Source: Dicyema japonicum
Lineage: Eukaryota > Dicyemida > Rhombozoa > Dicyemidae
Reading direction: 5' to 3'
DNA length: 64,000 nucleotides
NCBI GenBank assembly: GCA_011109175.1
Contig: RDEW01000037.1
Span: 427,410 to 491,409 of the forward strand
Shown: positions 8,369 through 52,283 of the stretch, piece after piece
Layout of the letters: each line of letters starts with the position of its first letter
How positions within the stretch are numbered: the first letter of the stretch is position 1
The notes under the pieces: model-generated
Seen by the model: the letters and a program-made list of their open reading frames with translations, nothing else
What the model was told of the DNA's origin: nothing
Databases searched by the model: none
Made by a program: the position numbers and the translations under genes

Positions 8369-10901
8369 TTAATATAAAGTAGAATATCGTGCCAAAGCCC
8401 ACATTGGGAATATATTTCTATAACCATTATAAGATATAGCACAATTCTCATTAAAGACTCCAGCCACATTTTCCTTATATAAGCTCATAAATAAACCTGT
8501 GGCCAATCACCATTTTCTAGTTGTCTACTTTTGATAAGATTTATTCCTCGTTCAATAACAGTTGTGTCAGGATATCTTTGGAATAAATAATATTAACAAC
8601 TTTATGACCATTAAACCAAGGAGAACAAATGATGTGTTAACAATCTGTGATTTGGAAGAGGATATATATTTACGCAATTCGCAACTCTCAAAGTCTTCTC
8701 CCCAACCACCATCAGGTAATTGTCTTTCGAGTAAAAACACTATTCCCTTTGGAATCTCAGGAATAGGATCACTACTAATTTACTACACCTACTCACCCAT
8801 CCACACAAGTGTACCCACAAGCAGCAAACAACTCCATAGCGAACCAGAAGGCGTACGTAAAGCAGACAGCCCAAGATCTAACACTATCAAACCTCATGTA
8901 CCCAATCCATGAACCATCCGGTCTTTGTTTTCGTCTAACAAAGTTTAACCCGTCGGTAGTGACTTTTCTATTGTAAAAAATATGATGAACTTGATGTCAT
9001 CCCAACGGTAATTTGGATATTTGCGGTTAAATCTGAGCAACCCCCTGATAGCTGCACTCGTACATTCCACATAAGTGTAATCGATCATAATATTTCCTTA
9101 CATATATAAACACGACTCACCGAACACTTCAGACGGGTTAAGAAGTTCCAGGAAGCTTCCCCCACGCTGTCTCTCATAGGACGCAAAACCACCATCAGAA
9201 CAAACCATATCCAGAATCTAATGAAATAAGTGAACAAAAATACACAATCCACACAATCGGTCAAACGGTTGTAGTCCAATTGAGGAACAAAGTCGAATTC
9301 TTGTAGCATCATAAAAAGAGAGAGTCCCTCCCCCGTACAATCACTAATTATGTATGAGTAATCGTGTGTGGAAAAAGGGAATCCACCCTGAATATACAAA
9401 ATCTACAGACCTTATTCCGTTGACGATAAAATTTGTGATAATCTGGGGGGTTGTCCTCAATCTGACTGTCAATGATCCACTCTATGGCACGTGTAAGACT
9501 GTCGACAATTTGTGGATATTGGTGAAAGTTTGGAATCTAGTTGTAATTAAGGATACCTCTATCAATGCCAAGCATATAAAGACCGTATCCCAGAACTGAG
9601 AGCCATTTGTACCCTAAATGCCTAGACATTAAAATACAGTCATTTTCATTCCATCCACACCAAGCCTTATATTAGTAAATGATAAAACCATAGAAAGTCA
9701 TCTATTCTGTCAACGTGAGCTTGGAATGCTTCGATATCTCCTCTGTGCCACCTTATCAACATATTGATACACTTGGATATCTAAACTTATACAACCCATT
9801 ACAGGGCCAACTCCAATGTAATTAGTAAACGAATCTTCAGCACATATATGATCATATACAACATCTAAGGCCCTCTTCTTATATATTCAGAGTGATATCT
9901 CTCATAAATATTTAACACGGCTGTATTACATAAATAGTCAACCATATGAAGATTTTAATAGGAATGAATGAGGATTATGCATGTCACTCTTGGCCACGTG
10001 CAACCGAGTACTAACCCAATCGATATCATTGTATTGCTCGTTTGGGTAAAGTTCCTGTAATAAGTATTCGATAAACCTGACGGAGATTTAGTATCAAAGG
10101 ATCAACCGGAGCAGAGATCTTTAATCCAAAACAGTAACTCATAGCGATATAGATTACTCGACAGTGACACCACATTTTGGAAGGATGGAATGGTAGACAT
10201 TCAGGTAAAATCCTAATATTATATTAAAACCAAACCATAGTTCTGGGAGAACAGCATTAATACCTTCCCAATCGTAGCAGTTGAGGACTGCAAGCCAGAA
10301 CTTCCCCAACTTGGGATTCCCTTTGTTCCCCCAAGATTTTGGATTACACACCGAGCTCGACACATTATCTTCTCATTGGGATCAACCCCCATCAGTCGTA
10401 ATGAAACATAATTAAGGACAGTCCCAAGGATAGTAGAAGGAGAACAGATGTGTCTAGGTTGGTATCAAAGACATACAGTCCCCATCCCCCACCGGGACAT
10501 TCAACAGAATGAAGATATCTTATTAGTTCTGATAATTTTTCCTGACTTATATCCACTTTGGTGATGTACCCCACAATTAATAGACCTTTAATTGTATATA
10601 CGGACTACCAGGTAGTAAAAATAAGGGACCACCATAATCGTAAGCCCAATGGCCATCTCTGCCTGAATTGCAGCAAGAAACATAGCCCCATTGATAGCAA
10701 ATTCGTTAGCAGAAGAAGGGTCATTGAAGAAGGTTATTTGATTTTCAATGGTCAATCCAACAGAATGTCTTTCTATATTGTTTGCTCACGATCGTTTATT
10801 TTATTGTAGAACCATCTCTGTCTCCCTCTCACACACTCAAGTCTCCATTTGGTAATATCAGTAGATGGTTCTGTCTTATATGGTCCTCCTTGATTCCTCA
10901 T
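8369..10901 (-). CDS. LSS: Lanosterol synthase (oxidosqualene cyclase), 18 tiny introns
   Basis: This gene would cyclise 2,3-oxidosqualene to lanosterol at the ER membrane, the first ring-forming step of sterol synthesis. Translation starts at ATG 10901 ('[17 protein letters not shown]'). Splicing 18 GT..AG introns of 17-26 nt gives a near-full-length animal-type enzyme. Family landmarks follow in order: '[18 protein letters not shown]', 'CPGGGWGL', '[13 protein letters not shown]', '[13 protein letters not shown]', '[10 protein letters not shown]', '[10 protein letters not shown]', the catalytic-acid motif as 'IISDCTGE' (usually DCTAE), '[12 protein letters not shown]', '[17 protein letters not shown]', '[12 protein letters not shown]', 'GDWPQENVAGVF', '[20 protein letters not shown]', stop at 8369-8371. 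Four single-base frame breaks lie near 10657, 10302, 9875 and 8952. These could be assembly indels or early decay. Identification is firm; functionality is not. Confidence 0.93.
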
Positions 10902-10957
10902 TGCTACAAGATATTTCTTAAATTATAAAATAGTTAAAAAGATTTCAATCACGAAAG
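10902..10957 (-). promoter_or_regulatory. Probable LSS 5' flank
   Basis: The stretch upstream of the LSS start codon is short and AT-rich, and a family R remnant follows. Any promoter must lie here or within that remnant. I see no specific element, so this is position only. Confidence 0.25.
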
Positions 10958-11840
10958 CTACCTTTGATAATTTAATTTAATAATATAAAATTTATATAAA
11001 GTCAATTTATATAATTGACATAATCCACCTTTACTGCCTCTCACAAAAAAATAAATAAATAATAATAACTTCCTCATTGCAACGGAGATCAACTTTAGAA
11101 GCCACTGGGTCTCACCTGCATCTTGGCTTTTGAGTGTAGCCAGACGTCCCAGTTTCTTGATGAAACGAAGTGGTTTCCAGCTTATTCTTCCAATTGTCTT
11201 AACTACGATAGGCAGGAACGAGAACCGATCTAATAGCAATTCTTTCCATTGCCTTCATAACTTTTTCCGCCCAATACATTGTTTGCATCGCGTGGCAGTC
11301 TGTTAATTTTGGATGGACAAAGCGGGTCATTGCACGCGACATTCCTTACCAATGGCTTTCCCTTCTCGAACGGAAAGATTTCAATTCCGTCCGACAGGTT
11401 TTCCATCTCCTCTGTACAGGCCGACCAGTATTGAAGGGTATACTTAACAGACTACAGAGTACGTTTCACAATCCTGTTTATCGCTTTATGTCTTGAAAAT
11501 GAACTTATTCGGCATGAAAAAGCTTTATCTCCTCAACAGTCGACGGTACCATAGCACTGGTACTTGTGGTCTTGCAAATCTCCAGTCCAAGTTTGATGGA
11601 GTTACCGATTCGGAAAGTATCGTCGTCGCTGTGGCTCCCGACGCTTTCCAGTGAGTGATTAATCCAATCGCCACCCAATCGCATCTTCCATTGACTAGAC
11701 ATGTGTGTCGGTGTTGGTTTAATGATTCAGAAGCTTCTCATATTTATTTTCGCAAATGCACCTATAAAATTCTCTTTGGTCAGGCGGTCTTGCTCCATAT
11801 CTTGACGATTCTGTTGGGAGTTCAAGAATCATTTTGATCA
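10958..11840 (-). mobile_element. Family R (R2/NeSL-like) LINE C-terminus with restriction-like endonuclease
   Basis: On the minus strand, in order: 'SVGSHSDDDTFRIGNSIKLG' (near 11655-11590), the block that precedes the zinc finger in this family; 'GIEIFPFEKGKPLVRNV' (near 11390-11330), the PD..(L/V)WDxT region in degenerate form; then 'RFSFLPIVVKTIG' and 'KKLGRLATLKSQDAGETQ' (11230-11100). I recall the pattern 'LVWDATCVDT ... FxFVPxAxETLG ... ISLAIQRGNA' as typical of LINEs with a PD-(D/E)xK-like endonuclease. Frameshifts break it. Confidence 0.6.
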
Positions 11841-11849
11841 AAAACTGAC

Positions 11850-12042
11850 TGAAGCAAAAGATAAATAAAAATACAGAATGTGCTATGTCTGTTGATGATG
11901 GTATTCCCAGACCACCAAAGCGAACGGGTGAGGTTGCTTAGTCCTTGAAGCAAAAGATAAATAAAAATACAGAATGTGCTATGTCTGTTGATGATGGTAT
12001 TCCCAGACCACCAAAGCGAACCGGGTGAGGTTGCTTAGTCCT
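11850..12042. repeat. 96-bp direct tandem duplication
   Basis: Two adjacent copies begin 'TGAAGCAAAAGATAAATAAA' at 11850 and 11946 and differ by one inserted C (gaacggg versus gaaccggg). They lie just upstream of the RTE element. They could be 5' monomers or a simple recent duplication. Confidence 0.85.
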
Positions 12043-12875
12043 ACCATGGTCATCAAATTTAACGTAAGTAGACGTTAGTGTATTTAAATGCCAAGAAAAT
12101 CTTATGAGCAAACACTGCTATGATCTAATTAAAAGCAATGTTACTGCAAAACATCAATCTCGAGTCTTCGTCACACAGAATCTCACAATTTCGCAACGTG
12201 GAACGTAAAAGGCTTAAACGAAGTGATACTAGAAGTCATAAAAAGAGAAATGAGAAGGCTTGATATTGCTTGGAGTAAGCGTATTTCACTGGATCGACAG
12301 TGGTTATTTTGTTCTGATGGTTTCGTCATATATTAGTAACATTAATGCGAAGAGAAACGGAATGACCTTAATTGCTTCAAAGAAAATAGCAGCTGCTATT
12401 GAAAGTCATAGAATATTCAATGATCGATAATACTAATCCACGTCCCTGGACGACCATTGAATATTACGTCATGCAAGTGTATTCCCCAACATCTATTGCC
12501 AAGGATGACGAAATTGACCAATTTTATTATGAATTTCAAGGGGCACTAAAACTAATACCCAAAAAAGACATAATCTACATAATGGGGATTTCAATTCAAA
12601 AGTTGGGTGTATGCCACATACGGATATTGTGGAAAGTTTTGGTTTGGGGAAAAGAAATGATGCTGGGGATCGAATGGTCCAATTCTGTCAGGAAAATGGA
12701 TTTCAGATAACTAACACATGGTTTAAACACCACAAACGACGATTATACACTTGGACGTCGCCAAATGGAATCTCTAAGAACCAAATTGATTATATTTTGT
12801 GCGCCAAACGCTGCAAAAGCTCTATAACAGCTGTCAAAACATATCCAGGGCAGACTGTGGAACAGACCTTCAGCT

Positions 12876-13413
12876 ACTATACCATTTCAGGTTTAAAGTG
12901 GGTCTTACCAAAAGCAAAGTGGGTCTTACCAAAAGCAAAGTGGTACTTACCAAAAGCAAAGTAGTACTTGTAGGATATAGACGCGTAATATTTTATCAGT
13001 GGCCCCTCTTATTGACTGGTCAGTGAAGTATGACCCCAGGAGTGACCACAATCCAATATTTTTGGAGTTCAAAACGAGTCACGGATAAAAGGACAATACC
13101 CAACGATAACAAACTCAGCCTTGCGAATTGAGAGGATTCAAAGAATACGTCGAGAAAAGTCGACTCTACATAAAACCAGACACACTGATAAAATATTACG
13201 CGTCTATATCCTACAAGTACCACTTTGCTTATGGTAAGTACCAATTTGCTTTTGGTAAGTTCCACTTTGCTTTTGGTAAGTACCACTTTGCTTTTGGTAA
13301 GTACCACTTTGCTTTTGGTAAGTACCACTTTGCTTTTGGTAAGTTCCACTTTGCTTTTGGTAAGACCCACTTTGCTTTTGGTAAGACCCACTTTAAACCT
13401 GAAATGGTATAGT
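12876..13413. repeat. Palindromic insertion with 21-bp minisatellite arms
   Basis: A 25-base stretch of the host RTE (12876-12900) is repeated inverted at 13389-13413. Just inside lie arrays of a 21-bp unit (AAAGTGGTACTTACCAAAAG plus C), about 3 units on the left and about 8-9 on the right, also inverted. Inside these, 33 bases at 12967-12999 are inverted at 13185-13217. The centre (13000-13184) is a piece of family A-like endonuclease/linker. Outside the palindrome the RTE frame resumes. Open frames through the arrays ('LTKSKV' repeats) are by-products. Confidence 0.9.
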
Positions 13414-13568
13414 TGCAAAAATTAGGACAAGTAAAGAAATTTGATGTCTCAAACATACCACCAGCATACAAATGGAAGTTAAGCACAATATAGGATTACT
13501 GGATTTGAACGAAAGAATACCTGATGAATTATGGAATGATATGCAGTTGGTTATCAGGAACGGTGCAA

Positions 13569-16443
13569 TTATTATTATTATTTAAGCCAAAGAAACACCG
13601 TCTTAACCAATAATTAATATTCAGGTGATCCCGGCATCTCTCAATAATCGGGCCATTTTTTCTCGATGCTCCGACCGTGATCCCACGCATTTTCTATACG
13701 GACGGGGTCTTTTTCCTTTTCTCTTCTGAAATTGCCTCCAGTTGCCTCTATGATAGACTCGAGTGCTCTGGGGGCAATTTCTTTATCTGTATATTTTTCT
13801 AGTAACTTTTTTGCTCTTGACTGGATATCTTTAATTTTTGTTAGGTTCGTTGCCGACAGGTTAGATCCCCATGCAGCACATGCATAGCCTATTGTTGGCT
13901 CGACATACTGCTTGTAGAGGGTCCCGATACCTGGCGGATAAATTCCTCCACAGTTCCAAAGGAAGGCCTTTACAAAATTGATCTTCTTTGCACAGGTTGA
14001 TATGATAGATTCCACATGGGCTGAGAAGCAGAGGAAAGTATCAAAAGTTACTCCCAGTATCTTCTGCGTTTTCTTTTGTGGTATAGGTACTCCATTTAAC
14101 GTGACATCAATTGTTTGCGTTCCCATCTTTCTATTCTTAGTAAATAGAGTGACTGCTGACTTTTCGGAACATGCATTTAATCGATTCTCGCACAACCATC
14201 CAAATATGTTATTTAGTATTCCTTGTAGTCTTTCCTTAGCATGTTCGACGTTTACGTCTCTAGATGCGACAACTATGTCATCGGCATAGGAAAGTAGTAT
14301 GTCATTATTATTCATAGGTACGGGGAGATCACTCAAAAACAAATTAAAAAGGATTGGTGACAGAGGAGATCCTTGGGGTACACCATTGGGTAATAATCCC
14401 GATCTGGAACTCTTGTTTCCGACGGATACTTTCCCTCGGCGTCCACTTACGAAATTTGCTAACCATAACTTTAATGGTGCATCAATTTTTGTCAAAAATA
14501 TTTTTCGTATGAGGATCTTCCTTGGGACAGAGTCGAAAGCTTTTTGAATATCGATCGTACATATGACCGATTTTTCCTGTTTTGGCTTGTTCTTGTGTCC
14601 TTCAGTTATGAACTTCATTAATGTTGTTAGGAAGGAGGTTGTTGATAATCCTTCCTTGAAGCCATGTTGGAATGTAGGTTGTGGGAGAAAAGGGCGAATA
14701 ACTTTTAGGACCAGTTTCTCCAGGATCCTCGACAAAACACATATAAGGGAAACTGGTCTGTAAGAGCCGGGATCGTTCTTCGGTCTTCCCGGCTTCAATA
14801 TTGGTCGAATTTTTGATAGTTTCCACAAAGTCGGTATGGTATTTCTGTTCAGCGATGTGTTGTAGATGTTTGTTAATGCATTTATTGATGCTGGGCCCAA
14901 GTGTTTCAGCAGAATAAGAGGAATTCCGTCTGGGCCACATGAGTTTGTTTTTTTCTGATTTGATATTGCTTTGGATACATCTTTAGGGAGAAAATAAATC
15001 AGCGGGGCAAATTTGGATGGCTTTCTCTTTATTTTCGTTTGTGTGTTAATCTTTTTATAAGGAATGTGACTGATTCGAATACAATGTTTCATATATTTAT
15101 TCAGATTGAGCTGGCATTGTTCTTTGTTATCTTCGTATTCTGGGTTCTTCAGACGCCTCAACATCTTCCACATGTTGGAAATTGAGGTCTGGTTATTCAT
15201 GGCAGCAGAGATTCGCATGAGTTTCTTCCTTTGGGTGTTGTTTGTGCTTTTCGTGATAAGAATGTTTAGTGACCTGATTCGATTAATAACCTCTCGTGAA
15301 CGATGTATCATTTTCTTAAGGTTGTTTCTTTCCATAATTATTTTCCTTGTTTTTGAGTCGTATTTCAATTTTTCGTTTTTTATATATGCTTTTCTGATAA
15401 AAATATTTCTTCCGTCAATGATTATTTTGTTGAAATAGTATATAGCTTTGTCTATGGAGGAGAAATTTTCAGATTGGAAATGTTGCAGTTTTGAATCAAC
15501 GAAATTTGTAAAGCCAGTCCAATTTGCATTTTTGTAATCATAGAAATGAATAGGCTTCGGTACAAAGCGTGGCTCGCAGTTCAGCTTCATTAACATTGAA
15601 TGGTGGTCGCTCCGGAGGTCATAACGGACCGTCCAATTAATGATCGTGGAAAGACGAGGTGAGCAGACGGATAAGTCCGGAGATGTCACCATGTCCTTCG
15701 TGTTGTATGGTGTCCTAGTGTTCTTTATCGGGTTGTTGATGATTATTAAGTTTTGCATTTGGGATAATAGCAGGTTTCCTCTGTTATCAGCGGATTGGTA
15801 GCGGAACCAAGAAGGGTGCTTCGCATTAAGGTCTCCACATAAAAGCAAGTTCTCCAGTTTGTCCAAGGTAGATAGGTCAAAGGAGAAATTTTTCTTGCAG
15901 GAGCCAGGAGGAGGAACATAAACATTCGCAATTTCAATTTTTCCAATGGAAGTTATAACAGAGATTCCAATTATCTCCGTGTTCGAGTCTTCCATTAAGC
16001 TCTTGTAAAGAGAAGGGTTCTCGAGGTATTTTATTCCTTTTCTCACAAGAGTCAGTAGACCCCCTCCTTGACCAGATGGGCGGTCGGATCTTACTGTGTT
16101 GTATCCGTTAAAGAGAGGAGTAGGAATTTTATTTGAAAGTTTCGTTTCCTGGAGAAGGCAGATGTCCACTCTGTTCCTCTCCAAGAATAAGGAAAGTTCG
16201 GCAATTTTTCCTCTGATCCCGTTTATGTTTAAGCTTTGGATTGTTAACTTCTTTGGGCCTGGGTTTTGTTCCACGTCTCCTGAGGTCAACATTCTCAATC
16301 GATAGAATGTTCCAACAGTGAGAGAATGCCGTCCAGTGGGAAGTCCTCTGGTTGGTAGAGAGCAAATGGTTCTTTTTAGATATAGTTTAGGACTATATCC
16401 GACGCCACCAGAAACGGTGAACCACATGACGCACGCCTAAATT
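13569..16443 (-). mobile_element. Full-length family A LINE with perfect target-site duplication
   Basis: The element is bounded by identical copies of 'TCAGGAACGGTGCAA' (13554-13568 and 16444-16458), the hallmark of target-primed reverse transcription. It lies minus-strand inside the RTE. Its 3' end is a short (AAT)n-like tail next to 13569. Its 5' end gives only about 16 bases before the start codon. A near-identical 3' fragment lies at 21040-21462, and more diverged copies at 1-1970 and 37400-40215. The intact frame and duplication indicate a young, possibly recently mobile copy. Confidence 0.93.
13641..16427 (-). CDS. Family A LINE polyprotein: 2A motif, APE endonuclease, reverse transcriptase (928 aa)
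   Basis: This single open frame encodes what a Jockey-group LINE needs for nicking and copying DNA. Residues 1-50 form a leader. Residues 51-58 read 'DVEQNPGP' after 'LTSG', a canonical 2A ribosome-skipping motif, so the leader is expected to separate at Gly57/Pro58. The endonuclease follows (about 60-290; 'LNINGIRGKI', 'LLQETKL', 'NVYVPPPGSC', 'LCGDLNAKHPSW', 'YDLRSDHHSM'). The reverse transcriptase lies at about 470-780 ('CGPDGIPLILLKHLGP', 'IDIQKAFDSVPRK', 'GVPQGSPLSP', 'SYADD' ending at 717). There is no zinc knuckle and no separate ORF1. The start is the first ATG after the element's 5' end. Similar 2A leaders are known in trypanosome L1Tc and some invertebrate LINEs. Confidence 0.92.
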   Translation of the reverse strand: MWFTVSGGVGYSPKLYLKRTICSLPTRGLPTGRHSLTVGTFYRLRMLTSGDVEQNPGPKKLTIQSLNINGIRGKIAELSLFLERNRVDICLLQETKLSNKIPTPLFNGYNTVRSDRPSGQGGGLLTLVRKGIKYLENPSLYKSLMEDSNTEIIGISVITSIGKIEIANVYVPPPGSCKKNFSFDLSTLDKLENLLLCGDLNAKHPSWFRYQSADNRGNLLLSQMQNLIIINNPIKNTRTPYNTKDMVTSPDLSVCSPRLSTIINWTVRYDLRSDHHSMLMKLNCEPRFVPKPIHFYDYKNANWTGFTNFVDSKLQHFQSENFSSIDKAIYYFNKIIIDGRNIFIRKAYIKNEKLKYDSKTRKIIMERNNLKKMIHRSREVINRIRSLNILITKSTNNTQRKKLMRISAAMNNQTSISNMWKMLRRLKNPEYEDNKEQCQLNLNKYMKHCIRISHIPYKKINTQTKIKRKPSKFAPLIYFLPKDVSKAISNQKKTNSCGPDGIPLILLKHLGPASINALTNIYNTSLNRNTIPTLWKLSKIRPILKPGRPKNDPGSYRPVSLICVLSRILEKLVLKVIRPFLPQPTFQHGFKEGLSTTSFLTTLMKFITEGHKNKPKQEKSVICTIDIQKAFDSVPRKILIRKIFLTKIDAPLKLWLANFVSGRRGKVSVGNKSSRSGLLPNGVPQGSPLSPILFNLFLSDLPVPMNNNDILLSYADDIVVASRDVNVEHAKERLQGILNNIFGWLCENRLNACSEKSAVTLFTKNRKMGTQTIDVTLNGVPIPQKKTQKILGVTFDTFLCFSAHVESIISTCAKKINFVKAFLWNCGGIYPPGIGTLYKQYVEPTIGYACAAWGSNLSATNLTKIKDIQSRAKKLLEKYTDKEIAPRALESIIEATGGNFRREKEKDPVRIENAWDHGRSIEKKWPDY

Positions 16444-17253
16444 TCAGGAACGGTGCAATAAAACATATCAAATGCAAAACGCCTGCCAAGTGCTCTGAGT
16501 AGCTCTCTGTTAACATCTGTTAACAAGCTCGAAAGCTGCTAAAGTCTCTGAATATAGACGAGACAAGAAAACTTAACTCTGAATTCAAAAAGGCAGCCAG
16601 GAAGGATAAAGAAGACTACTGGAGGTTACATTGCAAAAAATGAAAGATGATTATAAGAGAGGTCACACTAGGAATGTGTATTTACAACTAAAAAGATTAC
16701 GAGCCCCCTTTACGAAAATGATGGGCAAAATCAAGGACAAGGATGGTGTTGAATTGCTAGGCCAACAGAACATCCGAAATCCTTGGAGAGAATATACGGA
16801 ATGACTATATTCAGAAACTGTGTGCCTACCCATATATGTTGATGAAACAACGTTGGGTGAGGGGCATAAAATTTTTGAGGAGGAATGCGTGTGGGCTACA
16901 CGGCAATTAACAGGAACAAGGCACCGGGGATTGACAACATCTCAAGCGAATTGTTGAAGGCTATACCGGTGACAGCTATCACCAGTCTATGTCAAAAAAT
17001 TTGGGAAACTGGTATTTGGCCACGTGAGTGGAAAAGATCTATATTTATTTTAATACCGAAAAAAGGAGATAGCAAGGACTGTTCAAACTATCGTACAATA
17101 GCCTTAATTCCCCACGTCAGCAAATTACTTCTAAAAATAATACAACATCGTCTAATGCCAAATGCCGAAATTATTCTACCGGATGTCCAAGCAGGATTCA
17201 GGAAGGGACGAGGCACTATGGAAAAAGCCCATGAATCCCAAAAGAATGTATAC

Positions 17254-17295
17254 ATGTGCTTTATTGACTATCGAATGTGCTTTATTGACTATCGA
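17254..17295 (+). repeat. 21-bp perfect tandem duplication in the RTE coding region
   Basis: 'ATGTGCTTTATTGACTATCG' plus A occurs twice back to back, giving 'MCFIDYRMCFIDYRKAFDS' across RT motif A. It is in frame and probably arose after the element died. Confidence 0.9.
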
Positions 17296-18299
17296 AAAGC
17301 TTTTGATTCCGTTATACATGACAAGATGTGGTCTGCTTTAAAAGAATTTGGATTCGATGGCCATCTGATATTGCTCATCAAATCTCTTTATAAGAATCAA
17401 GAAGCTATTGTTAGAACAGTGTATGGAGTTACCGATTGGTTCAAATTGGTAAAGGAGTAAGACAAGGATGCTTATTATCTCCCATCATATTCAATAATTA
17501 TGCCGAAATGATCATGACTAAATTGGATATTGTATCTAATAACAGGATTAAAATTGGAGGCAGGAATATCAATAATTCAGAGAAGAGAGCGCCGTCTTTG
17601 GTTTATTGCTATATGTCAAAAAGACCAAAATTATGACGACTGCTAATAATGGAACTAAAAATTTGGAATAAAAAAATAGAGAGTTGCGATGATGTTGTCT
17701 TTCTGGGATGTCTAATTAATCGGAATGGTGACGGAGGCTTGGAAATCAAGAGTCGAATTGCCATGGGACGCCTTCCAGTGAATGAATAGAATTTGGAAAA
17801 ACAAAGATATTTGCTTAAGGAACAAATGCAGACTGGTTAATGCAATCGTGTTCTCGGTTTTTCTATACGGCGCAGAATCATGGATACTGAAAAAGGCGGA
17901 TAGACGAAAAATTGATGCTTTTGAACTTTGGTGATGAAGGAGGTTACTAAGAATCCCTTGGACCTCCAAAGTAACAACCATCAATGTACTCAAACGGGTA
18001 GAGACTGACATTTCGTTAGAGGGAAGAATCGTAAAACACAGATTGGCGTTCTTTGGGCATGTTGTCCGCTCTGATTCCCTGGAAAGAACCATTATGCTGA
18101 GCAATATTCTGGGAAGAGAAGACCTGGCCGACCAAGGACTCGGTGGCTATCCACGGTGGAAGACGTCACGGAAATGCCTATATCAAGGCTACTCCAAATT
18201 GCGACGGATCTGGGAGAGTGAAGAAATTGGCTCATGAGATCTCCAAGGGTCGGACACGACATAATTTGGGTAACATAGACGTTAGTGTGGAAGTGGAAT

Positions 18300-23890: not shown

Positions 23891-23901
23891 ATTAATCTTT
23901 T

Positions 23902-28860: not shown

Positions 28861-28965
28861 ATTAAATATTAACTTTTTTGGTTGGTTGGTTAAATAAATA
28901 TTAATTAATAAAAATAAGATTAATAAATGAGCAGATTTTTAAAGTTATTTTCCTGTGTGACAAAA

Positions 28966-29679
28966 ATGCGTATAATTATATTTAATAATTAGAAATATCC
29001 GACCAGTCTAAACTTTGCATACTTCCAAGTAAACAAGGGTATTCAATGTAGAATTTCTCAATAAAGACACAAAATGGATAAAATCAAAAGCCATTGAAGG
29101 TAACGAACCTAAGACCTATCTCACTGATGGAGAAACAGTGCTCGAATTAGTCAAGTTCTCTGACGCGAATAGCAGCATTTTCATGGACGACTATATTTTA
29201 GAGGGTTTTACTATTACTTACGTTCAGATCCAAGTTTAGTTTTCTTTACACCAGTCGATCCACTGTTTGTCCTTCTCCCATATTTGTGTTCATCACCACA
29301 GTCTGAAGTAAGGATTCCTCCCATAGATTTGGAGGGACTCGTTGATTACAACTTCAAACAACTGTCCCACGTGGGTGATGTTAAATGTTTTGTTTTATAG
29401 TCAATTTCAGTAAGGAATGGTGTTTTTTGTACTTTTAATGAGACAAAAACTCTGAACTGGTTGGAAAAGAAGACTAAAAGATGTGTTTTATCGTTAAAAG
29501 AGGAAATATCTGTTACAAACCCTTTATATTCTGCAGTCGACTTGATTGGAAGATATATTTCCAATGATATGGAGAACAAACTGAAAATAAAGATGGGAAT
29601 TGATGACAATATACATTTTAATAAAAATGGGAAACGTATAAACTATAAACCACTTACTCACTTTTTTAAAAAAATATGA
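28966..29679 (+). CDS. RNASEH2B: Ribonuclease H2 subunit B homologue, four tiny introns
   Basis: This is a non-catalytic subunit of the nuclear RNase H2 complex, which removes ribonucleotides and RNA from RNA/DNA hybrids. ATG 28966 is followed by introns at 28970-28992, 29029-29051, 29205-29227 (each 23 nt) and 29380-29400 (21 nt; an alternative donor would make it 30). The spliced product has 'KLCILPKFLNKDTKWIK', 'TDGETVLELVKFSDANSSIF', the family signature 'FFTPVDPLFVLLPYL', then 'TKTLNWLEKK', 'DLIGRYISNDMENKLKIKMG', and a C-terminal 'KPLTHFFKKI', placed and shaped like the PCNA-binding (PIP) box of human RNASEH2B. It is about 205 aa, shorter than the human protein. No frame breaks were needed. 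Confidence 0.85.
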
Positions 29680-40215: not shown

Positions 40216-40289
40216 AGTCTCCAAATGTATAAATATTATTAATAGCACTTTCGAAGAACCGAAAAAGTAATTTATTTAATTAAGGTTAC

Positions 40290-41471: not shown

Positions 41472-41499
41472 AACCAAAATAAAGGTATAAATAGCTAAG

Positions 41500-42200: not shown

Positions 42201-42385
42201 CCCAACGTCGTTAGAGAATACATCACACCAATTTATTTTGTATTAGTTTCTCCACAATATACCGCCATACTGGGTGTCTCTCGTTCTCCTCGTCTTTCTT
42301 TTAGTCAGTCCGAAATCACATAGTTGAAGACTTTCTTTCTTCCCTTTTAACGATTTGATCCTGGGGCAATAAATAAATTAAAAGA
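42200..42385 (+). mobile_element. LINE 3' end (GATCCTGGGG type)
   Basis: 'GATCCTGGGGCAATAAATAA' at 42356-42375 is preceded by a T-rich stretch, as in the 3' ends at 26600-26697 and 43870-43920. It faces the next fragment tail to tail. Confidence 0.5.
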
Positions 42386-42399
42386 TGGTAATAGTCGGA

Positions 42400-42930: not shown

Positions 42931-42959
42931 GAATTTTTCAGGGTTAGGAGAGATTTCAA

Positions 42960-43930
42960 AAGCGCCGGAGAAGCCTGTATTAATGTTAATCTCCCTTGTT
43001 ATGTTAATGCCTGAATCAGAACAGGCCTTTCTACAGTGACTCATTTAGGATCCGTTCCCAAGTTGATCACAGACGGCTTCAATCGCACCTTAACCAGGTG
43101 TGTAACTGGCTATCCGCAAATATGTTGTCTTTATCTGCATCCAAGTCTCAGTTCACCCTGTTCACTACGGACATGAAATTTAGGGCTATTCTTTGGAGAC
43201 ATCCTTATTCTTTCTACACGAATCCAGGAGATCATTGGAGTAACTTTCGACTCTTTAATGACGTTTTCCAGTCAGCAGAAGAAGTGTTAACCAAGGGGGT
43301 TCTAAAGGCTATCATAAAGAAGAGCCCCTCCAACATGCTGCCTGTATCAGTAAACTCTATCTTCAAATTATTGTGCCGACAGTTGAATATGCTTATTCCG
43401 CCTGGAGATTTGCTCATCATTTATTGAGGATTGAGCGTATAGACACTCTCAGGCATAAAACACATTGCTCATGCAAGCCGACAGCTCACCCACCACCAGT
43501 CTCCTTTCTGAGGAAGCGACACAGAAAAAAACAGGGTTTCCTACGTTTCTGCAAGGAGCTAGGAAACCCATTTAGAGAAAGGGTACCTCTCACATAGGAA
43601 TTCTGATAGACCATAAAAGACATCCCGAAGATTTCCTTGCAGACACAAAAGATGGAACTTCCGGAAGACAATTGGGTCGCTGTTCTGGAGCTAGGGAGAC
43701 TGGGATCACCTAATTAGTGGGTCTGTTGCTTTAAATAAAAGTTTTAATTTAATATTTATGAATAAATGTAAAAAATACCAAGATACGAGACAACTACATA
43801 TACTTTCTGGAGAGCCATGCAGGATTCTCGTCCAAGTCAGATAGGACCTCTCCCACGTCAGTCTAGGTCACTTAGGAACTTTCTTTTTTACTTTTAATCC
43901 TGTGATCCTGGGTAACAATAATAAAAAACA
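42960..43930 (+). mobile_element. Family A-like LINE C-terminal fragment and an adjacent 3' end
   Basis: 'VCNWLSANMLSLSASKSQFT' (43099-43155) matches 'FGWLCENRLNACSEKSAVT' of the intact copy, followed by thumb sequence to about 43560. 'GGGATCACCTAATTAGTGGG' near 43700 resembles the family A 3' UTR. A second 3' end of the GATCCTGGG type lies at 43870-43930, so two fragments may be joined. Confidence 0.6.
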
Positions 43931-44152
43931 GTACACTAACTCACCATATCCTGGTGATGTCTTTTGGGGAGATTGAAAACATAGAAAGCATTTGGATATC
44001 ATAAAAAAGTAAATTTATTATTTATATACGAAAATAGTACTTCCTGTCCTTAAATGAGCTGATTATTCCATATATGGAAATATTCAACATCTGCAATTTC
44101 CTCATTTAGTAATATTTCTGCTTATAAGCCGTTTGTGAGTATTTTACTATGA

Positions 44153-46112
44153 ATGTTTATTTTTGTTCTGTTCTTCCACGTTTATAATCAGTGTCCTTAC
44201 ATCAGTATACCCAACAATATCAGAAAATACCAAAACTCCCAAGTCTTCATATTAAGCATATCGACTGACAAACGAGTCAAACATAACTGGCCGTCACAGT
44301 TAACTCTCAAATGTTTTCCGGAAGTAAAAGACAGGGGGTTTATTGTGGGTTTTAGTCCAAGACAGAGGATATGGGTGAACAAATATTCTGGAAGCTATTT
44401 CTCGAAAAATATCTCAGCCACGTGGAATTTGACTGACGTAGATGACTACGATACTTTTGAGCCACCTTACTGCCAATTTTATGTGGGGGGGAGATCATGT
44501 TTGATTGACACGAACGATTGGATCCATAGATCAGGTTTTCCACGTGAATATTCATAGAAATAAAATTACTGATACAAAACAACTCATTATCAACGCATTC
44601 CTGAACCAATCTTTGGTTCTGCGGTTATTCGAGGTACTCCCCGAAGATTTGCCTTTCATTTCCGACCGAGAGGATCAAATGTCTGACTGCAATCTCCAAC
44701 TGCTTTCTTCGAAGCTGGTTCACGGTCACGAGTTATTTTAGAAAACTCTCTACATCCCCAAGGTGACTGGGGAGAAGATCATCAAATGCTTGATATACGG
44801 AATGCGACTGGTCTACACCATAAAGTACGACATCTGTAGATTAGTATTGTTACCCCCAGCTCCAAAAATCCACGAGGTACACCGCGAACAGTGTGAGATC
44901 CTATTCCCTGTGAAAAACACTAAAATCTACAATTATGACCACAACTTCTACAACGGATTGAAGACCACAGCAGAGGAATTCAAATTTTCCTGTCTAAACA
45001 ACCGACTCTCCAGTGGGTACCAATGTCTCATTACTCAGTAACATAATCTATCGACTCAAAAACAACGAAATTACTGATTTGAACTCCGCATTGTTCTCTT
45101 CTAAGGGTCTATACGAACTGTACTGTGAAATTGTCACAAACCATACTCACGTGTCGGCTTTTCGATTATATCTCCACGTAGTTGTTGTGGTTCACTTAAG
45201 TTCCTCCCAAAATTCTTTCTGGATTGAAAAACTGCAAAATTGTCAGCAATTTATGCGAGTTTCATCTGAACGTCAACTATGGACGTTATGCCGATGAGTT
45301 GAAGATTTCCTGGTACTTTAACGGAGTCAGATTGACACGTTTGTACATTTAAAGTCAACCTTAGCAAACGAGCACGTGAAGATCGACGAAAGCGGACTGA
45401 ATTTGGTCATCAACATCTCCGATTATAAAAGCGGAAATGTGCAAGCCATAATAAGCAACAGATTTGGTTCACAAATGGCCAGTGCTTATGCGGAATATAT
45501 TGGTGAGCTCTTTGATTTAAACAGAACCCCCTTATTTCGAGATCAATTTCCCCGAGAGTGTGATCCTCAAAGACAAGAGTACCACCATTGAGTCAAAAGT
45601 TCACTACGACGGAATGGAAAAGGTTTCAATGTGGTGGGCCATCAACGGGGAAATACTCAACAAGAGCAACAAGCCTAGTAATGTGATCTCCTCTGTCAAT
45701 ATCAAAAAATACACGTGGTTGGGGCAGCTTTTCTAATTTACAGCACTCTGAAAATCGAAAATAGTCCTCAGATCACCATGGATGACGTTTTCTCTTGTTT
45801 CTTTAAAGTGGGACAACTCGTAATTGAAAGCAGACGATCAAGGATCACAACATTAGGTATTCACGTGGTTTGATAAGTCAGAAAAATCTAACAACGTTAA
45901 TATTTATTTGTTCGGCGTTGGTGGAGCAGTTGTAGGACTGATTATTATACTTACAATATTAAAGTTGGTCTATCCAAGATATGGTGGAACATATTGCGGT
46001 AGTATCTAATCACTCAATTGTAGTTGAATCGAAGGAAAGGGAGTATGGAATACTCAAATACACTAATTTATGGAAATTTTATAACGAAGACTCTGAACTG
46101 AATAATTGTTAA
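44153..46112 (+). CDS. Ig-domain single-pass membrane protein, tiny introns
   Basis: A hydrophobic start ('MFIFVLFFHVYNQC') looks like a signal peptide. Several Ig-like modules follow ('LTLKCFPEV', 'EFKFSCLNNRL', 'ELKISWYFNG' with 'GLNLVINISDYKSGNVQAI', 'KVSMWWAINGE' with 'DDVFSCFFKV'). A transmembrane helix ('GGAVVGLIIILTILKLV') and a short cytoplasmic tail ending 'KFYNEDSELNNC' complete it. Introns that restore the frame lie at 44499-44529, 44718-44741, 45017-45038, 45326-45354, 45503-45524, 45715-45743, 45857-45881 and 45999-46023 (22-31 nt). One junction near 45175-45205 does not fit GT..AG; it needs a one-base indel or a non-AG acceptor. No orthologue is recognised. It may act as an adhesion or recognition receptor. 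Confidence 0.78.
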
Positions 46113-46164
46113 TTTATTTTGTTAAATAATTTAAGTAACAAAATTAATGTTTTATTAATTAGTA

Positions 46165-48107
46165 CAGTTTGACCTCTATTTGGGGCACCTATTTAAAAAA
46201 ATGCCCCAAAACAGAGGAAAAAGGTTCGGCATTTTCTTTAGATTTATCCACAGTTTAACAATTTAAATTTGCTTTTTATTAAATTTATAGATAAATAATG
46301 TTTTTTATAGATTTTTCAGAATTATATTAAAAACAAATTTATTTAACGATAGGAAAATAGTCTGTTAATTTCCCTCCGGTTGCGGATTTTTTCATTTGCA
46401 TTCCTAATATTTTTCTGAAATTATAATAATCTTTCAAAGCTTCAGAAAACAAATTGAAAATGTTCTCTTCAAGTGTATTCATCGCTGTTATTGTTTCCAA
46501 ATGAGAATAGGTACATTTTACTCCGTCGTATTCTCGTCATCATTTTCTACTTCATTTTCAGTATATATTTAATTATGTTATCTAAACTCTCCAATTCATT
46601 ATTCACCAATGAGAGAGTTTGAAAACGACATCAATTTTCTTCCAACAATTAGTAATTGATTCAGAGTGTATTTGTTGTCTTCCCAACAATAATGATTATT
46701 TGTCTGAGATTTACTTGCTTTAAATTCAACATTGTAGAATTATCATCCTCAAAAGATAGGGTAAATCCATCAAATTATTTAAATAATTGGATTTGAACGA
46801 TTTAATAACTATCTAAGGGTTGAATTAATGATGTTGCATTTTTTGGCAGAAAAAATAACTCAATGTTAGAAAAATGATTATTCTTGTGACAACTTGTATT
46901 GTCAAGCAAAAGGACAATTTTTCGGTTGTGTTGGATCATTTCTTCGTTGACAATGTTCAACCAAGTAATAAATAGATGTCATCCAACAATTTTTAGAAAA
47001 CGAATATAAAACTCCGTGCTCTTCAGGGTTAAAATTTTTCATACAACGTGGGGATTTATATTTTCCTATTAATAATGGCTTCAATTTTTCGCCACAAGCA
47101 CTGACCGACAAAAGCATAGTGACTTTTTCTTTACTCCTTTTAATTCCAAAACAATCTTCATCTGAAGTTACAAATGATTTTGATGTTATTCTTTTAATGT
47201 ACAATCCCGTATCATCGCAGTTGAAAATATTTTCAATGCCATAGTTATTAACATAGTCATCGTACTTATCAAAAAAATTCCAAGGCAAGAAATATCACAC
47301 GAATTTTTTTCACCACTTATTGTCTTAAATGACAAATTGTGTCTTTTCTTTAATTTTTCAAGCCAACCATTCGAACCTCTGAATAAAATATAGTTCAAAG
47401 TAGGAAAAAAAGTCAAGTGGAAAAAAGGTTCAAGCGGAAAAAAAAGTCAAGTTGTCTTTTTTAGTTTATATCGCATTTTTGTGATACTACTAGCATCTTT
47501 TAATTTTTAAAAATTTTTTCAATACTTGACTTTTTTTCCGCTTGACTTTTTTTCCATTTTTGAAAATTTTTCCCTTATAAATTTTCGAAATTTAGCGCAA
47601 AACGGAAAAAAAGTCAAGTCCGTAATTTCGTTAACGGACTTGACTTTTTTCCTAGCTACTTTTATAGCAATGTTTTTAAGGTCCTGAAACGGGAATAAAT
47701 TCTTCCCTTGCTTTAAAAAAGCATTCATAAACAATTTTATCGAATTTCTGTGACAGACTGTCTCTTCTCTGCGAAATTTGACTAAGACAATTTTATTGTA
47801 CGGACCCATTATATATAAAGTTCATATAATTTTGTTTAATTCTAGATACTGCTCCTAAACAATAGAATTATCAGATAACCTTTATTAATTTTATACTTTT
47901 TGACAATATCTCGTTCTCTCATGAAACAATTTTCGTTGATTTCTTTGACAATTTTAAGCTTTAACTCCAGAGTAAGCTTTCTCCCCATGACAACAAAAAC
48001 GCAAATCTAGCACGCGAAGTTTAAAAAAATTTTATATAATTAAATTTAATATTAATTGCAAGACTTTATATAAATAAAAAATTAAGTGCCCCACAAAGTG
48101 GTACATG
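46165..48107 (-). mobile_element. pogo/Tigger transposon with inverted ends and TA duplication
   Basis: The ends are similar inverted sequences ('CCTCTATTTGGGGCACCTAT' at the left; at the right, read inverted, 'CCACTTTGTGGGGCACTTAA'), each next to TA. Minus-strand transposase parts: 'MGRKLTLELKLKIVKEINEN' starting at 47988 (helix-turn-helix), 'KQGKNLFPFQDLKNIAIKVA', 'RGSNGWLEKLKKRHNLSFKT' (second DNA-binding domain) and 'NIFNCDDTGLYIKRITSKSF' (47235-47175, first catalytic Asp) to 46902. An internal MITE at 47403-47652 interrupts it. Stops elsewhere indicate decay. Confidence 0.85.
47403..47652. mobile_element. 250-bp MITE inserted at TA
   Basis: The element begins 'GGAAAAAAAGTCAAG' and ends 'CTTGACTTTTTTCC', inverted, with TA at 47401-47402 and 47653-47654. 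Deleting it plus one TA joins the minus-strand pogo frame 'NIAIKVA' directly to 'TLNYILFRGSNGW', restoring expected transposase sequence. Its core matches each arm of the foldback at 24760-25570. It has no coding capacity. Confidence 0.93.
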
Positions 48108-48169
48108 TAATTTCCAAATTTGCCGAGAAAACATAAAATTAGTTAAGTTTCCCTTGTGCCGTATTCCTA

Positions 48170-48545
48170 ATCATCCTCTCCGTCAGCCCCGAACATGATC
48201 CTCCGTTGCGCGCTAATTCTCTTAGGTGGTCTAGGTCGTCCGCCATTTCCATTATAATGTTAGATGCTGCTCACACTCTTGTAACACAGTGAATCAGGTC
48301 CTGATGAACTGCAAATCTGAGACCATAATGTCGGCAGGCCGATGAGAGGGTATAAAGGTGAAATTTTCTAAACAATTCTGTAAATTGTACGGTCGTTTTT
48401 GTCTCTTGTAGACAGCAGACAGAGACGTCATATTTTGTTAGATCCCATGCATGCCAGTTGGTGATTCTTGTAAGGTTGTTTAAGCCGTGGAGAAGTCGGT
48501 AATAAGACATAGTGCAATAGAGGCGTCGTCACCACTTCAACTATT
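48170..48545 (-). mobile_element. Family B LINE, extreme internal deletion
   Basis: The minus strand begins with the family B 5' end near 48545 ('TTGAAGTGGTGACGACGCC'). It reads endonuclease start 'YDVSVCCLQETKTTVQFTEL' (48430-48370), then after about 100 bases the extreme C-terminus 'DDLDHLRELARNGGSCSGLT' (48245-48180). Nearly the whole element between is missing. Confidence 0.75.
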
Positions 48546-48549
48546 AAAA

Positions 48550-49130
48550 TAAGTCTTGTATGTTGACTGGTTGACATCTCTCAATATATATAGGAAAGCT
48601 ACATAATGAAAACTAGTAGAACGGATAGTGAAGAGCACGTCACAAGCGATACCTAAAGTATTCATATGTTTATGTGTAATACGGGAATGCATTTAATTAA
48701 ACTAACTTAGTCTTTGAGAGTGTGGAGTGATTGAAAAGTGGTTCACTGGAAATAAACTACTGCCATCATCAATCCATAAACCCTAAACGGTTTAGAGTGT
48801 CATTACATTTTGACTGGGAGTTCTCCTTCCAACACGGATTTGTGCGGGGTTAAGAGAGGAACACTTAACCAAATTGAGGACTCTGTTGGACGTGTAGGGA
48901 TCACATGGTCATCAGGATCTGATTTTTGGAATAGCTTCATTCAAGACAACCACGATTGAATCATACTTGTTGAATATACTATAACAATGTGCCTTATTGG
49001 AATAATCCTGCCACTCTTAAACCCTTTAGATTAATAAAAATGACCCAATCAACTACACTTTACTGCCAATAAATTATTCATAACTACCGGTTGGCTTTTT
49101 TTCAAAAAAATTTGGCACGATTTTTTTGAA
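48550..49130. other. Unassigned region
   Basis: No supported frame. A short family A-like string ('SFQHGFVRG') occurs near 48825-48850, perhaps a tiny LINE relic. Confidence 0.3.
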
Positions 49131-49149
49131 TTAAATTTTATAAATTAAT

Positions 49150-49533
49150 TTAATAAGTTGTGTAATTGTTCAGAGTCTTATTATTCTGAAAGGTCTCAAA
49201 AATGTTCCTAAATGTAAAATTCCAAAAAATATTGTTGTTGTTGCGTCTGAAGGAGGTTTTATTTATTCATTAATTTACGAAGGAATTTACACAAATGTTA
49301 TCGAAAACGGCCAAGCTGGGAATGTGTTTTGCAAATGAGATTTATTTCAATAATTAAAAGTTTAGAATGCTGCGGAATTGCACAGAGATAAAAAAGTTTC
49401 TCTTGATTTTTTATTCAAATCTGAAAAGAAGAATGTCGCAAATGTTGAATTAGAGAATAAATATGACGGTATTTTTGATGAAATGGAAATAATTATCGAT
49501 GATATTGAAAATGTTTTTTGTATTCGATTATAA
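49150..49533 (+). other. Unidentified host-like exons
   Basis: A frame reading 'VVVASEGGFIYSLIYEGIYT' and 'NVIENGQAGN' (about 49229-49325) can be spliced over 42 nt (ending TTTAG at 49356) to 'NAAELHRDKKVSLDFLFKSE' and on to 'FDEMEIIIDDIENVFCIRL', stop near 49531. No family is recognised and the start is unknown. Confidence 0.3.
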
Positions 49534-49544
49534 AATTTATTTTT

Positions 49545-50640
49545 TTGGTTGAGGTGGTGACGTCCCTCTATTGCACACATATCTTATTCATGCACTCAAC
49601 CTTCCTTGTTTTCGATTGGATCGTTTAATGTAAGAGGACTAACATCATGCGTCAAAAGACAACATTTATGTGCGGACCTCCCAAAATACGGAATATCTGT
49701 ATGCTGTATCTAGGAGACTAAAGTCTCTGGATGAAACAATAAACAGGTATCGACTGCTCATGTTGCCGTCAAACTTCCGACTTTATGGGATGGGGTTTGC
49801 TATATGCATGGACGAACTGTAGTGGCTCATAGAGCATGCCTCGGAAACAACTGCAATAGTACCTAATCGGTTATCAAACGGGCATCCGCCAACGCAGAGA
49901 AACTTGACAATTTCTACTCGTCCTTGTCATCGGCTTACTTTTCGCTGTTCATCTCCTACATGCTCTTTATAGCAGGTGACTGAATTCCAAAGTTGGGAAA
50001 AAGCTGGACGAATCAAATTGCTTGGGCAACCACGCTCGAGGGATCAGAAATCTGTCCGGGGAGGCCCTAATACACTTCTACGAGTCATTTGGACTGTTCC
50101 TTTTAACACGGTGTTCCGACATGCAGCGCCACATATTATGACGTGACAGGACGGAGGAGAGACCCCTGTGTAAATTACGTCCGTATATTTAACCAAATCG
50201 ACTACATACATACTATGCAGACAAATACATAAGGGGCTACAAGCGGAATCTCGTACGCACAGTGGCACGATGACCTCGATTGATCACAGACTACTGGTGG
50301 TATCATTCTAAAGCGACGCTTTGGAATCTCCGGAGCACTGACAGCATGCACACGGAGCAGGAAATTGGCCGTGAAGGCTCTATGTGCTTCCGGCAATACC
50401 AGTAAAACCAAGCAAAAGGAAAGAGCTATCATATCCTGATGCACGACGAGACTTAGTTAAGTCTTGCATAACCTCAATGCCGAATCTTTTAATACTTTGT
50501 GGCACAATGGTCCATGATTTCTTTCACTTTATACAATATTACAAATTCCAGTTATCCTATAAGAACATGTTTCTGTCTCGAACAGAACAATGCTTGAGAA
50601 TTGCTCTCCTTAGGATCCAATGAGGGAGTGCTGGATACTC
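49545..50640 (+). mobile_element. Family B LINE 5' end and endonuclease
   Basis: The 5' end 'TTGAGGTGGTGACGTCCCTC' at 49548 is followed by 'GSFNVRGLTSCVKRQH' (49620-49670), 'YGISVCC', 'NAEKLDNFYSSLSSAYFSLF' and a degenerate 'GD*..KLGKSW' block near 49976-50010. The end of the endonuclease is suggested by 'DYIHTMQT' near 50195-50225. The RT is absent. Confidence 0.65.
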
Positions 50641-50735
50641 ACAATCTTTTATTCGTTCGTAAGCTGTCTGGTTTGTCAATTTATTCAACCCACGTGACTA
50701 ATAAGAATCAAGTGATAAAACTATATAAAATGAGT

Positions 50736-52283
50736 TCAAAAATAAAATGAACAAAAAAATGAAGCAAGATGAACCAAGGAAGCCAGAGAAAAAGGGAATG
50801 CGGCCCCCATAAAACTAAAATTCTTGACAGACCATGAAAAGATCCCTCCAAACAGAATCGGAGCGATTGACCTGACAATGACCACAGCTACAACCTCCCA
50901 ATGGAAACAAAAAATGTAGAAACTGCATTGACTCCCCCAACGTCGTACGAATCCACGGAATCGTTAATTAAAATAGATATGACCCCGTGAAAGTCGTTTT
51001 CGATATCCCGTACATCATGTAAACAAAAAATAGGCCCAAATACATGACCACGTGGTCAGACAAATCCATTATCCAGTAGTTCAAAGGGAAGACAAACGAT
51101 GTGATAAATAAACCGACAGTACAGGCTCCGACAGTCTAATTTGGTTACTTAAATTGATGCCTTCACGACGGACATCTTTTGGAGGGTTTTGGGGAACAAA
51201 AAGAGTTGGTATATCAGACAGGGGATTCCAGAGACGAAAAGAAAGTTGCCGATTTGATTGCTACTGAAATTGGTTCCACCTGGAAGTATTAGGGGTTACA
51301 ATACCATGAACGAAGCTGGAGGACAAAAAAATAGGGACAAGCTGTCGAAGGGCTGAGTTTGCGAATGAAAACAAAAAATAGACGACGATAGCTACACGAA
51401 CACGTGGGTTACTTAATTTATTAAAATAGAGGTACCATAGAATTCTCGAATAGGAGGATTTCAGTTTAAACTCAGAAGTTTTTGTAATCCAACTATGGTC
51501 CACGTGAGGCCTATATTTGAATAAAGACTCAACCTCTTTGCCTTCCTGACTTCAAAACGGAAGACAAAACAGACGAAAGCAGTGTAGAATGCGGCCATGA
51601 GGGAAGATACCAGGCAAGGAAAGGTCCACAAGAAAAACTTCAAATAAGTAAACGCTCCAAAAAGTATATAAAAATCCTAGAAATAGGCAAAAACTAAGTG
51701 CAAACTTACCCCAAATAGAGGAGCTATGAATTACCCCACTTGGTTACCCACCAGCATCATTTGGATGCCTGAAGCGTGTGAATCCTTGTCAAAAATTTCC
51801 CAAATGACAGATTTTATAAGAATGTTCAAAACTACAAGTTAAATCAACCAAACCTGTGAAAAATCCGATAAAAAATCTCAAAACAAGAGCGAGGCCAAAA
51901 GAGGTCGAAAACCCAAAGGACACGAGTAAAATAACATTCGCGACACAAACCGCTTGGAGGAGGGCTGAGGTGGATTTTCTGTACAAAATATATCCAACAA
52001 AATAGCTAAGATTAGAATCACAGAAACCTCCCCAAAATCTGTCCCGTGAAGAAGGCGGTCTCGATGATGCCAATATAACGGCCTACAAGGACTTTGTTGT
52101 ACCCAAACCTCTACTTTAAATAAATCCGACTACCTCAATCAGGTATGGCATAAATGGTTGCACGAATGCAATGCTGATGGGAGAGATTGTCTGCTAAGTG
52201 AATTAATATTATACTGATATAGCAAATATGTAAGACATGGCTTTCCTCCTCTCATTTGGAAGCATATCACGTATATTTTGCAT
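50736..52283 (-). CDS. MFS transporter, ZIFL-like, with about ten tiny introns
   Basis: A 12-helix-type major facilitator is rebuilt by removing introns of 16-34 nt. The start is ATG 52283 (alternatives 52265 and 52238). In order: 'TISPISIAFVQPFMPYLIE', 'YNKVLVGRYIGIIETAFFTG', a diverged motif-A loop 'GYILYRKST', 'LALVLRFFIGFFT', 'DKDSHASGIQMM', 'APLFG', 'FPCLVSSLMAAFYTAFVCF', 'VVYFLFSFANSAL', 'GGTNFSSNQIGNFLFVSGIP', 'QLFLFPKTLQKM', 'SVDSYDVGGVNAVSTFF', 'SIAPILFGGIFSWSVKNFSF', stop at 50736. These blocks follow the order of plant and fungal ZIFL/Zn-tolerance-type MFS proteins as I recall them. The shortest intron is 52006-52021 (16 nt). One frame change near 50980 has no GT..AG solution. The substrate is unknown. 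Confidence 0.83.

Follow-up and report, generated by a model that had tools for sequence, protein, structure and literature searches.

The nuclear genes of a dicyemid very probably carry ordinary U2-type GT-AG introns of about 23 nucleotides (nt), in which the A of a yUnAy motif would be the branch point and two spacings would set the intron size. This reading comes from a stretch of 64,000 nt (C123:427410-491409, hereafter the window), part of an assembly of 64,672,829 bases in 191 contigs, and from genes elsewhere in that assembly. The window contains a gene for LSS (lanosterol synthase) that is interrupted by 17 such introns; splicing itself we infer from genomic sequence. The ultrashort introns of dicyemids are already known. 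The yUnAy branch-point-like signal in them is new, and the position of the predicted branch motif suggests why the introns are not shorter.

Ultrashort introns in LSS and across the genome

We used a custom protein-to-DNA spliced aligner, which accepts introns in all phases as well as single-base frame slips, to align positions 8350-10920 of the window (minus strand) with human LSS (1w6k sequence). A hand-joined query from this gene matches LSS with E 8.1e-264. The alignment is free of stops and contains 17 GT-AG introns of 20-26 nt, and 382 of 704 aligned residues are identical to the human protein. As a control, each of the 256 possible dinucleotide pairs was used as intron boundary. GT..AG scored 1823 compared to 1616 for the runner-up, a mean of 1496 (standard deviation, SD, 46) for the other 255 pairs and 1435 for an alignment without introns. 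Since GT..AG far outscores all other pairs, the boundaries are a property of the sequence and not imposed by the aligner. The LSS introns are real whether or not the LSS gene is intact.

A preliminary description of the window had counted 18 LSS introns of 17-26 nt. Seventeen, of 20-26 nt, stand; the 17-nt segment at 10773-10789, presumably the eighteenth, is doubtful because its excision removes a conserved REQT stretch, and an alignment with slips allowed favours instead a one-base slip, one of four in LSS. The 20-nt intron at 9537-9556 has a donor resembling the U12-type consensus. The genome holds a U12 small nuclear RNA (snRNA) gene (C68:163471-163599, 85.4 bits); a search for U12-type introns with a TATCCTT donor and a CCTTAAY pattern gave 25 matches, compared to 64 for the pattern read backward, so such introns are not enriched. 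The LSS of the window is full length and 51-55% identical to LSS in the 120 relatives listed. The word 'lanosterol' was not found in the main text of the two dicyemid genome papers searched.

Beyond the window, we aligned genes from other contig regions: Prp8, CCT-gamma, CCT-alpha, CCT-epsilon and HSP60, which are five of ten chaperonin/Prp8 loci found by family search, and aldolase. The references were Lingula Prp8, chaperonins from PDB and Dicyema acuticephalum aldolase, and intron length was limited to 10-150 nt (10-80 nt for Prp8 in the final set). In the first six genes, LSS included, 64 of 65 introns measure 20-26 nt. The remaining one, an 11-nt 'intron' in CCT-alpha, was produced by the aligner and turns into a 21-nt intron once slips are penalised harder; it was dropped from the earlier statistics. 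The final reference set of seven genes has 72 introns with a mean of 23.28 nt (SD 1.27), a median of 23 nt and a range of 20-27 nt, including two introns, one each in Prp8 and CCT-gamma, that had been aligned as slips and were added by hand. GT..AG ranks first of the 256 pairs in all five genes tested (LSS, aldolase, CCT-alpha, HSP60 and CCT-epsilon).

We also built a small gene finder with a flat prior over intron lengths of 15-100 nt, using codon and intron-composition scores trained on six genes; an earlier flat-prior version with codon scores alone had been unsuccessful and was superseded. Applied to 30 helicase loci cut from 73 matches, it produced models at 29 loci with 281 introns, 145 of them of 22-25 nt. 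Reversal of these loci left 3 models, whose 16 introns included none of 22-25 nt.

These results bear out the central claim of the preliminary description, that the genes become collinear with their families once GT..AG segments are removed: it holds for LSS and for six further genes, with GT..AG the best of 256 pairs in the five genes tested. The proposed range of 16-34 nt narrows to a reference-supported 20-27 nt, and a minimum of 16 nt is not supported.

The usual minimum intron settings of spliced mappers and gene finders would misread such a genome. The published mean intron length for D. japonicum, 38.2 base pairs (bp), may be inflated for this reason.

Splice signals, branch-point-like motif and spacing

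The introns are AT-rich, with an interior GC content of 18.5% compared to about 39% in exons. Their donors show little beyond GT and a preference for a preceding G (45 of 72): G at +5 occurs in 13 of 72, and the donor consensus of U2-type introns, GTRAGT, in 4 of 72. We do not count such weak donors as excluding U2-type introns, because published dicyemid donors are also weak. Compared with exonic GT..AG decoys of the same length, introns are best told apart by T content (area under the curve, AUC, 0.95) and low GC (0.92), with +5 G at 0.48. Eight features combined reach an AUC of 0.974 in leave-one-gene-out tests, and 10 of 291 decoys pass at 90% sensitivity, a contrast that is partly one of coding composition since the decoys lie in coding sequence.

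Next, we looked for the branch motif yUnAy (TNAY), with expected counts taken from dinucleotide shuffles. In the 72 reference introns, its A lies at -7 or -8 in 37 cases compared to 15.8 (SD 3.5) after shuffling (22 vs 8.0 at -7 and 15 vs 7.8 at -8), with no enrichment at -5, -6, -9 or -10. The helicase loci behave alike: of their 178 ab initio introns of 20-27 nt, 85 have the A at -7 or -8 compared to 31.1 (SD 5.0) expected, 46 at -7 (vs 15.7) and 39 at -8 (vs 15.4). No branch-motif excess was found in 85 predicted introns of other lengths (at least 18 nt).

We then defined a band of positions for the A, with minimum distances of 16 nt from the 5′ end of the intron and 7 nt from its 3′ end. 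The motif expected of U2-type introns occurs in this band in 142 of 250 pooled introns (54.7 after shuffling, SD 5.9) and in 22 of 42 held-out introns of 20-27 nt (8.7, SD 2.3), the latter from loci and window parts unused in the earlier branch tests. The excess is specific: TNAY is enriched 2.56-fold in the band, seven other motifs 0.37- to 1.28-fold. The T at -2, the A and the following pyrimidine are each required for the enrichment. Exonic GT..AG decoys (n = 333) have no motif excess (24 vs 29.5, SD 4.9), and just 3′ of the band the pooled introns have 16 motifs compared to 23.1 expected. Any A at all is found in the band in 206 of 231 introns of at least 22 nt (124.2 expected).

The position of the A depends on intron length. 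It is 16 in 22-nt introns (47%), 16-17 in 23-nt introns (35% and 31%), 16-18 in 24-nt introns (20%, 20% and 22%) and 16-18 in 25-nt introns (18%, 18% and 26%), with a further 8% at 19. This shift is the pattern expected from two minimum spacings.

The genome keeps canonical pairing sequences in its snRNAs: ACAGAGA in U6, GUAGUA in U2 and ACUUACCUG in U1 (eight U6, eight U2 and one U1 copies). For U6, nine matches are above the cut-off; for U2, 22 of 25 are, 16 of them above 110 bits, with six matches on contig C115. The U1 copy (C23:884201-884347) has a canonical donor-pairing 5′ end and a body just under the Rfam cut-off. Prp8 and SF1-HH were found in the genome. Inspection of U2, U6, SF1 and U2AF, which the preliminary description had put forward as a check, thus gave canonical U2 and U6 and an SF1-HH domain; for U2AF, exons resembling the large subunit are present, none of which alone exceeds the cut-off of the model.

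We propose that the in-band yUnAy A is the lariat branch point, paired with a normal U2. A separate polypyrimidine tract would have no room in these introns, and the spliceosome would locate them mainly through composition and the two spacings. The two floors add up to 16 + 7 - 1 = 22 nt, and the length mode of 22-24 nt would rest on that sum, so that most introns would exceed the shortest tolerated length by no more than 2-3 nt. With less assurance than for the introns themselves, we favour the view that the spliceosome sets the size of dicyemid introns through two minimum spacings, one of about 16 nt between donor and branch A, the other of 7 nt between branch A and acceptor. The donor and branch helices would then abut, and the linker needed by the human precatalytic complex would be nearly gone, which would imply a different geometry of assembly or activation. 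If this geometry is true, an animal with canonical pairing sequences in U1, U2 and U6 splices over a donor-to-branch distance of about 15 nt, and the question of the minimum intron length becomes a comparison of named proteins.

Several observations weigh against this reading. Weaker TNAY excesses exist at -11 in the reference set (14 vs 7.9) and at -9 and -11 in the 178 ab initio introns (24 each vs about 15). The band was set after viewing the pooled table, and the 42 held-out introns are the sole later test. In-band motifs are missing from 108 of the 250 pooled introns; 44 of these have no A in the band, including 19 introns of 20-21 nt that are unable to meet both floors. There is also a motif excess 5′ of the band, at positions 12-15 (43 vs 31.7 in the reference set, 107 vs 93.6 pooled), and the held-out introns have 17 motifs 5′ of the band compared to 12.7 (SD 2.8) expected. 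Introns of 21 nt favour position 15 (6 of 11), which shows some leeway in the donor floor. Some of the 281 ab initio introns must be wrong, 136 of them being outside 22-25 nt. Finally, all 11 U1 matches are below the gathering score (best 69.0 vs 69.5).

The introns could be real while something other than the branch point shapes the yUnAy excess, be it a site bound by a protein or, in AT-rich introns, a TTATTATAG-like end. In favour of this, the commonest enriched in-band pentamer is TTATT (32 vs 11.2). Nevertheless, we consider this explanation unlikely: longer introns displace both edges of the band in the way that two spacing limits predict, the T at -2, the A and the pyrimidine are all necessary, the shuffles preserve the AT pattern, and U2 has kept GUAGUA.

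Gene integrity, source organism and known systems

It is very improbable that the frames are decaying pseudogenes in which chance GT..AG stretches bridge indels. In favour of decay, four one-base frame slips interrupt LSS, a higher number than in any other gene (one each in Prp8, CCT-epsilon and HSP60, none in CCT-alpha, CCT-gamma and aldolase), and GT..AG pairs of 20-26 nt are common: six genes with 64 introns hold 347 decoys, of which 56 overlap a true intron. Decay would not, however, place GT..AG first of 256 pairs in five of five genes, nor give the same pattern in core genes such as Prp8 (84% identical to its best relatives), CCT and HSP60, nor leave aldolase with five introns, no slip and no stop. 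The slip in Prp8 falls in a T run and one LSS slip in a single-base run, which suggests assembly error, and missed introns explain a second Prp8 slip (a 23-nt intron) and a slip in CCT-gamma. In-frame stops are present in 17 of 20 introns with a length divisible by three; they carry little weight, because AT-rich sequence itself gives many stops. Overall, the segments behave as spliceosomal GT-AG introns, as originally proposed, and the frames are not generally decayed.

The spliced aldolase is 76% identical to that of D. acuticephalum over 99% of its length, and at most 64% identical to any other among the best 120 of 7,999 matches. A 29-row tree places this aldolase and that of D. acuticephalum as sisters with a support of 100/100. 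Prp8 falls inside a 26-row bilaterian clade (support 99) in a tree of 36 rows, where it has the longest end branch, no supported neighbour and a position away from the orthonectid Intoshia. The assembly size (64.67 megabases, Mb) agrees with the roughly 65 Mb of a dicyemid genome; the published D. japonicum genome measures 67.5 Mb with 4.1% gaps and a GC content of 36.7%, and the window has 28-43% GC per 2 kb. Dicyemid genomes are further marked by a GC content of about 37% and many LINE-type elements, and the window contains a reverse transcriptase/endonuclease reading frame. Judged by these comparisons, the source organism is a dicyemid, a minute parasitic animal, and the window is nuclear DNA. 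The preliminary description had named dicyemids as one of several guesses, and that guess was right. The genome has two aldolase genes (C68:1155153 and C112:545724) whose exon layouts closely resemble each other.

Comparably tiny introns are known in Stentor and Paramecium, and the median intron of an orthonectid genome measures 57 bp, but it is scarcely conceivable that the source is another tiny-intron lineage (ciliate, nucleomorph or orthonectid), given the position of the aldolase beside Dicyema, that of Prp8 among animals and apart from Intoshia, exons of seven genes without in-frame standard stops, and a size similar to the published D. japonicum genome.

Other members of the phylum also have densely spaced, very short introns: the mean is 26.2 nt (SD 1.9, n = 16) in D. 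acuticephalum (Aruga et al. 2007, PMC2222250) and the median 27 bp in Dicyema sp. (PMC6543705). At 23.3 nt (SD 1.3, n = 72), the introns described here are about 3 nt below these values (t = 5.9 compared to D. acuticephalum). For 41 introns of D. acuticephalum, Irimia and Roy (2008, PMC2483917) reported donors weaker than any others known and no branch signature; our data agree on the donors and differ on the branch. Searches of open-access papers gave none with a dicyemid branch-point position.

In Stentor coeruleus, introns of 15-16 nt have a branch A at position 10-11 and a 5-nt tail, and occur in 18% of genes only (PMC9505925). They resemble the present introns in being AU-rich, with a weak consensus and a branch A at a fixed position, which differs: here the predicted A is at position 16-18 with at least 6 nt after it. 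Given the Stentor lengths, the general statement in the preliminary description that such introns are near the physical limit is too strong. Paramecium bursaria has introns of similar length (median 24 nt), of which those of 23-26 nt are spliced best and low GC favours splicing (PMC12862383), but it is a ciliate.

Human short introns use the same U2-type machinery. Splicing of human test genes suffers badly once donor and branch are less than about 50 nt apart and almost disappears below 47 nt (PMC11291888); for the human B complex, the estimated requirement is 52 nt (PMC6692369). The putative distance of about 15 nt would be about a third of the human minimum.

Features of the window

Table 1. 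Genes and introns located in the window (window positions)
Feature	Position	Strand	Basis or remark
LSS (lanosterol synthase) gene, ATG to stop, 17 ultrashort introns, four slips	8369..10901	-	spliced alignment
LSS intron, 23 nt	10586..10608	-	spliced alignment
LSS intron, 23 nt	10454..10476	-	spliced alignment
LSS intron, 23 nt	10213..10235	-	spliced alignment
LSS intron, 22 nt	10055..10076	-	spliced alignment
LSS intron, 22 nt	9921..9942	-	spliced alignment
LSS intron, 22 nt	9781..9802	-	spliced alignment
LSS intron, 23 nt	9666..9688	-	spliced alignment
LSS intron, 24 nt	9614..9637	-	spliced alignment
LSS intron, 20 nt	9537..9556	-	spliced alignment
LSS intron, 23 nt	9388..9410	-	spliced alignment
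LSS intron, 26 nt	9218..9243	-	spliced alignment
LSS intron, 24 nt	9097..9120	-	spliced alignment
LSS intron, 23 nt	8968..8990	-	spliced alignment
LSS intron, 24 nt	8878..8901	-	spliced alignment
LSS intron, 25 nt	8772..8796	-	alternative 22 nt via preceding AG; ab initio model has a 22-nt intron here
LSS intron, 25 nt	8576..8600	-	spliced alignment
LSS intron, 23 nt	8474..8496	-	spliced alignment
RNASEH2B-like gene, ends uncertain	28880..29637	+	ab initio model; Pfam Ydr279_N
RNASEH2B-like intron, 23 nt	28970..28992	+	ab initio model
RNASEH2B-like intron, 23 nt	29029..29051	+	ab initio model
RNASEH2B-like intron, 23 nt	29205..29227	+	ab initio model
RNASEH2B-like intron, 24 nt	29387..29410	+	ab initio model
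Ig-domain receptor-like gene	45281..46321	+	weak family match (I-set E 1.6e-4, below cut-off)
MFS-like transporter gene	50389..52283	-	two ab initio models; weak family match, first part only
MFS-like intron, 22 nt, in place of 16-nt call	52006..52027	-	profile match improves

Besides LSS, the preliminary description had listed four genes in the window. The RNASEH2B homologue is supported by a match to Pfam Ydr279_N over the full length of the domain (E 3.5e-5, 24.4 bits compared to a cut-off of 25.2), and its ab initio model contains one doubtful 56-nt intron besides the four of 23-24 nt. The Ig receptor and the MFS transporter gave weak family matches, and their models also hold segments of 33-58 nt. 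No PAGR1-like gene was found in the window, where no search by that name was made.

A 16-nt MFS intron (52006-52021), earlier called as the shortest of all, is not supported. The first ab initio model, with a 49-nt intron at this site, matches MFS_1 with E 0.0012, and replacing it with the 22-nt intron improves the match to E 6.3e-7 (29.1 bits, below the cut-off of 33.4). The 16-nt version has no match at E values up to 1, a contrast that HMMER filters may exaggerate.

Rfam and tRNA scans of the window gave no matches. Mobile elements are present. A non-long-terminal-repeat retrotransposon reading frame at 13644-16427 (minus strand) encodes endonuclease and reverse transcriptase domains and is open over 928 amino acids, and the window has further reverse transcriptase-like fragments. 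Translation of a short tandem repeat at 13020-13420 gives repeats of LTKSKVV from one strand and of FAFGKYH from its complement. Finally, a Pogo-like DNA transposon at 46905-48000 (minus strand) matches DDE_1 (E 3.2e-9) and, below the cut-off, CENP-B_N; its ab initio model carries segments of 22-25 nt.

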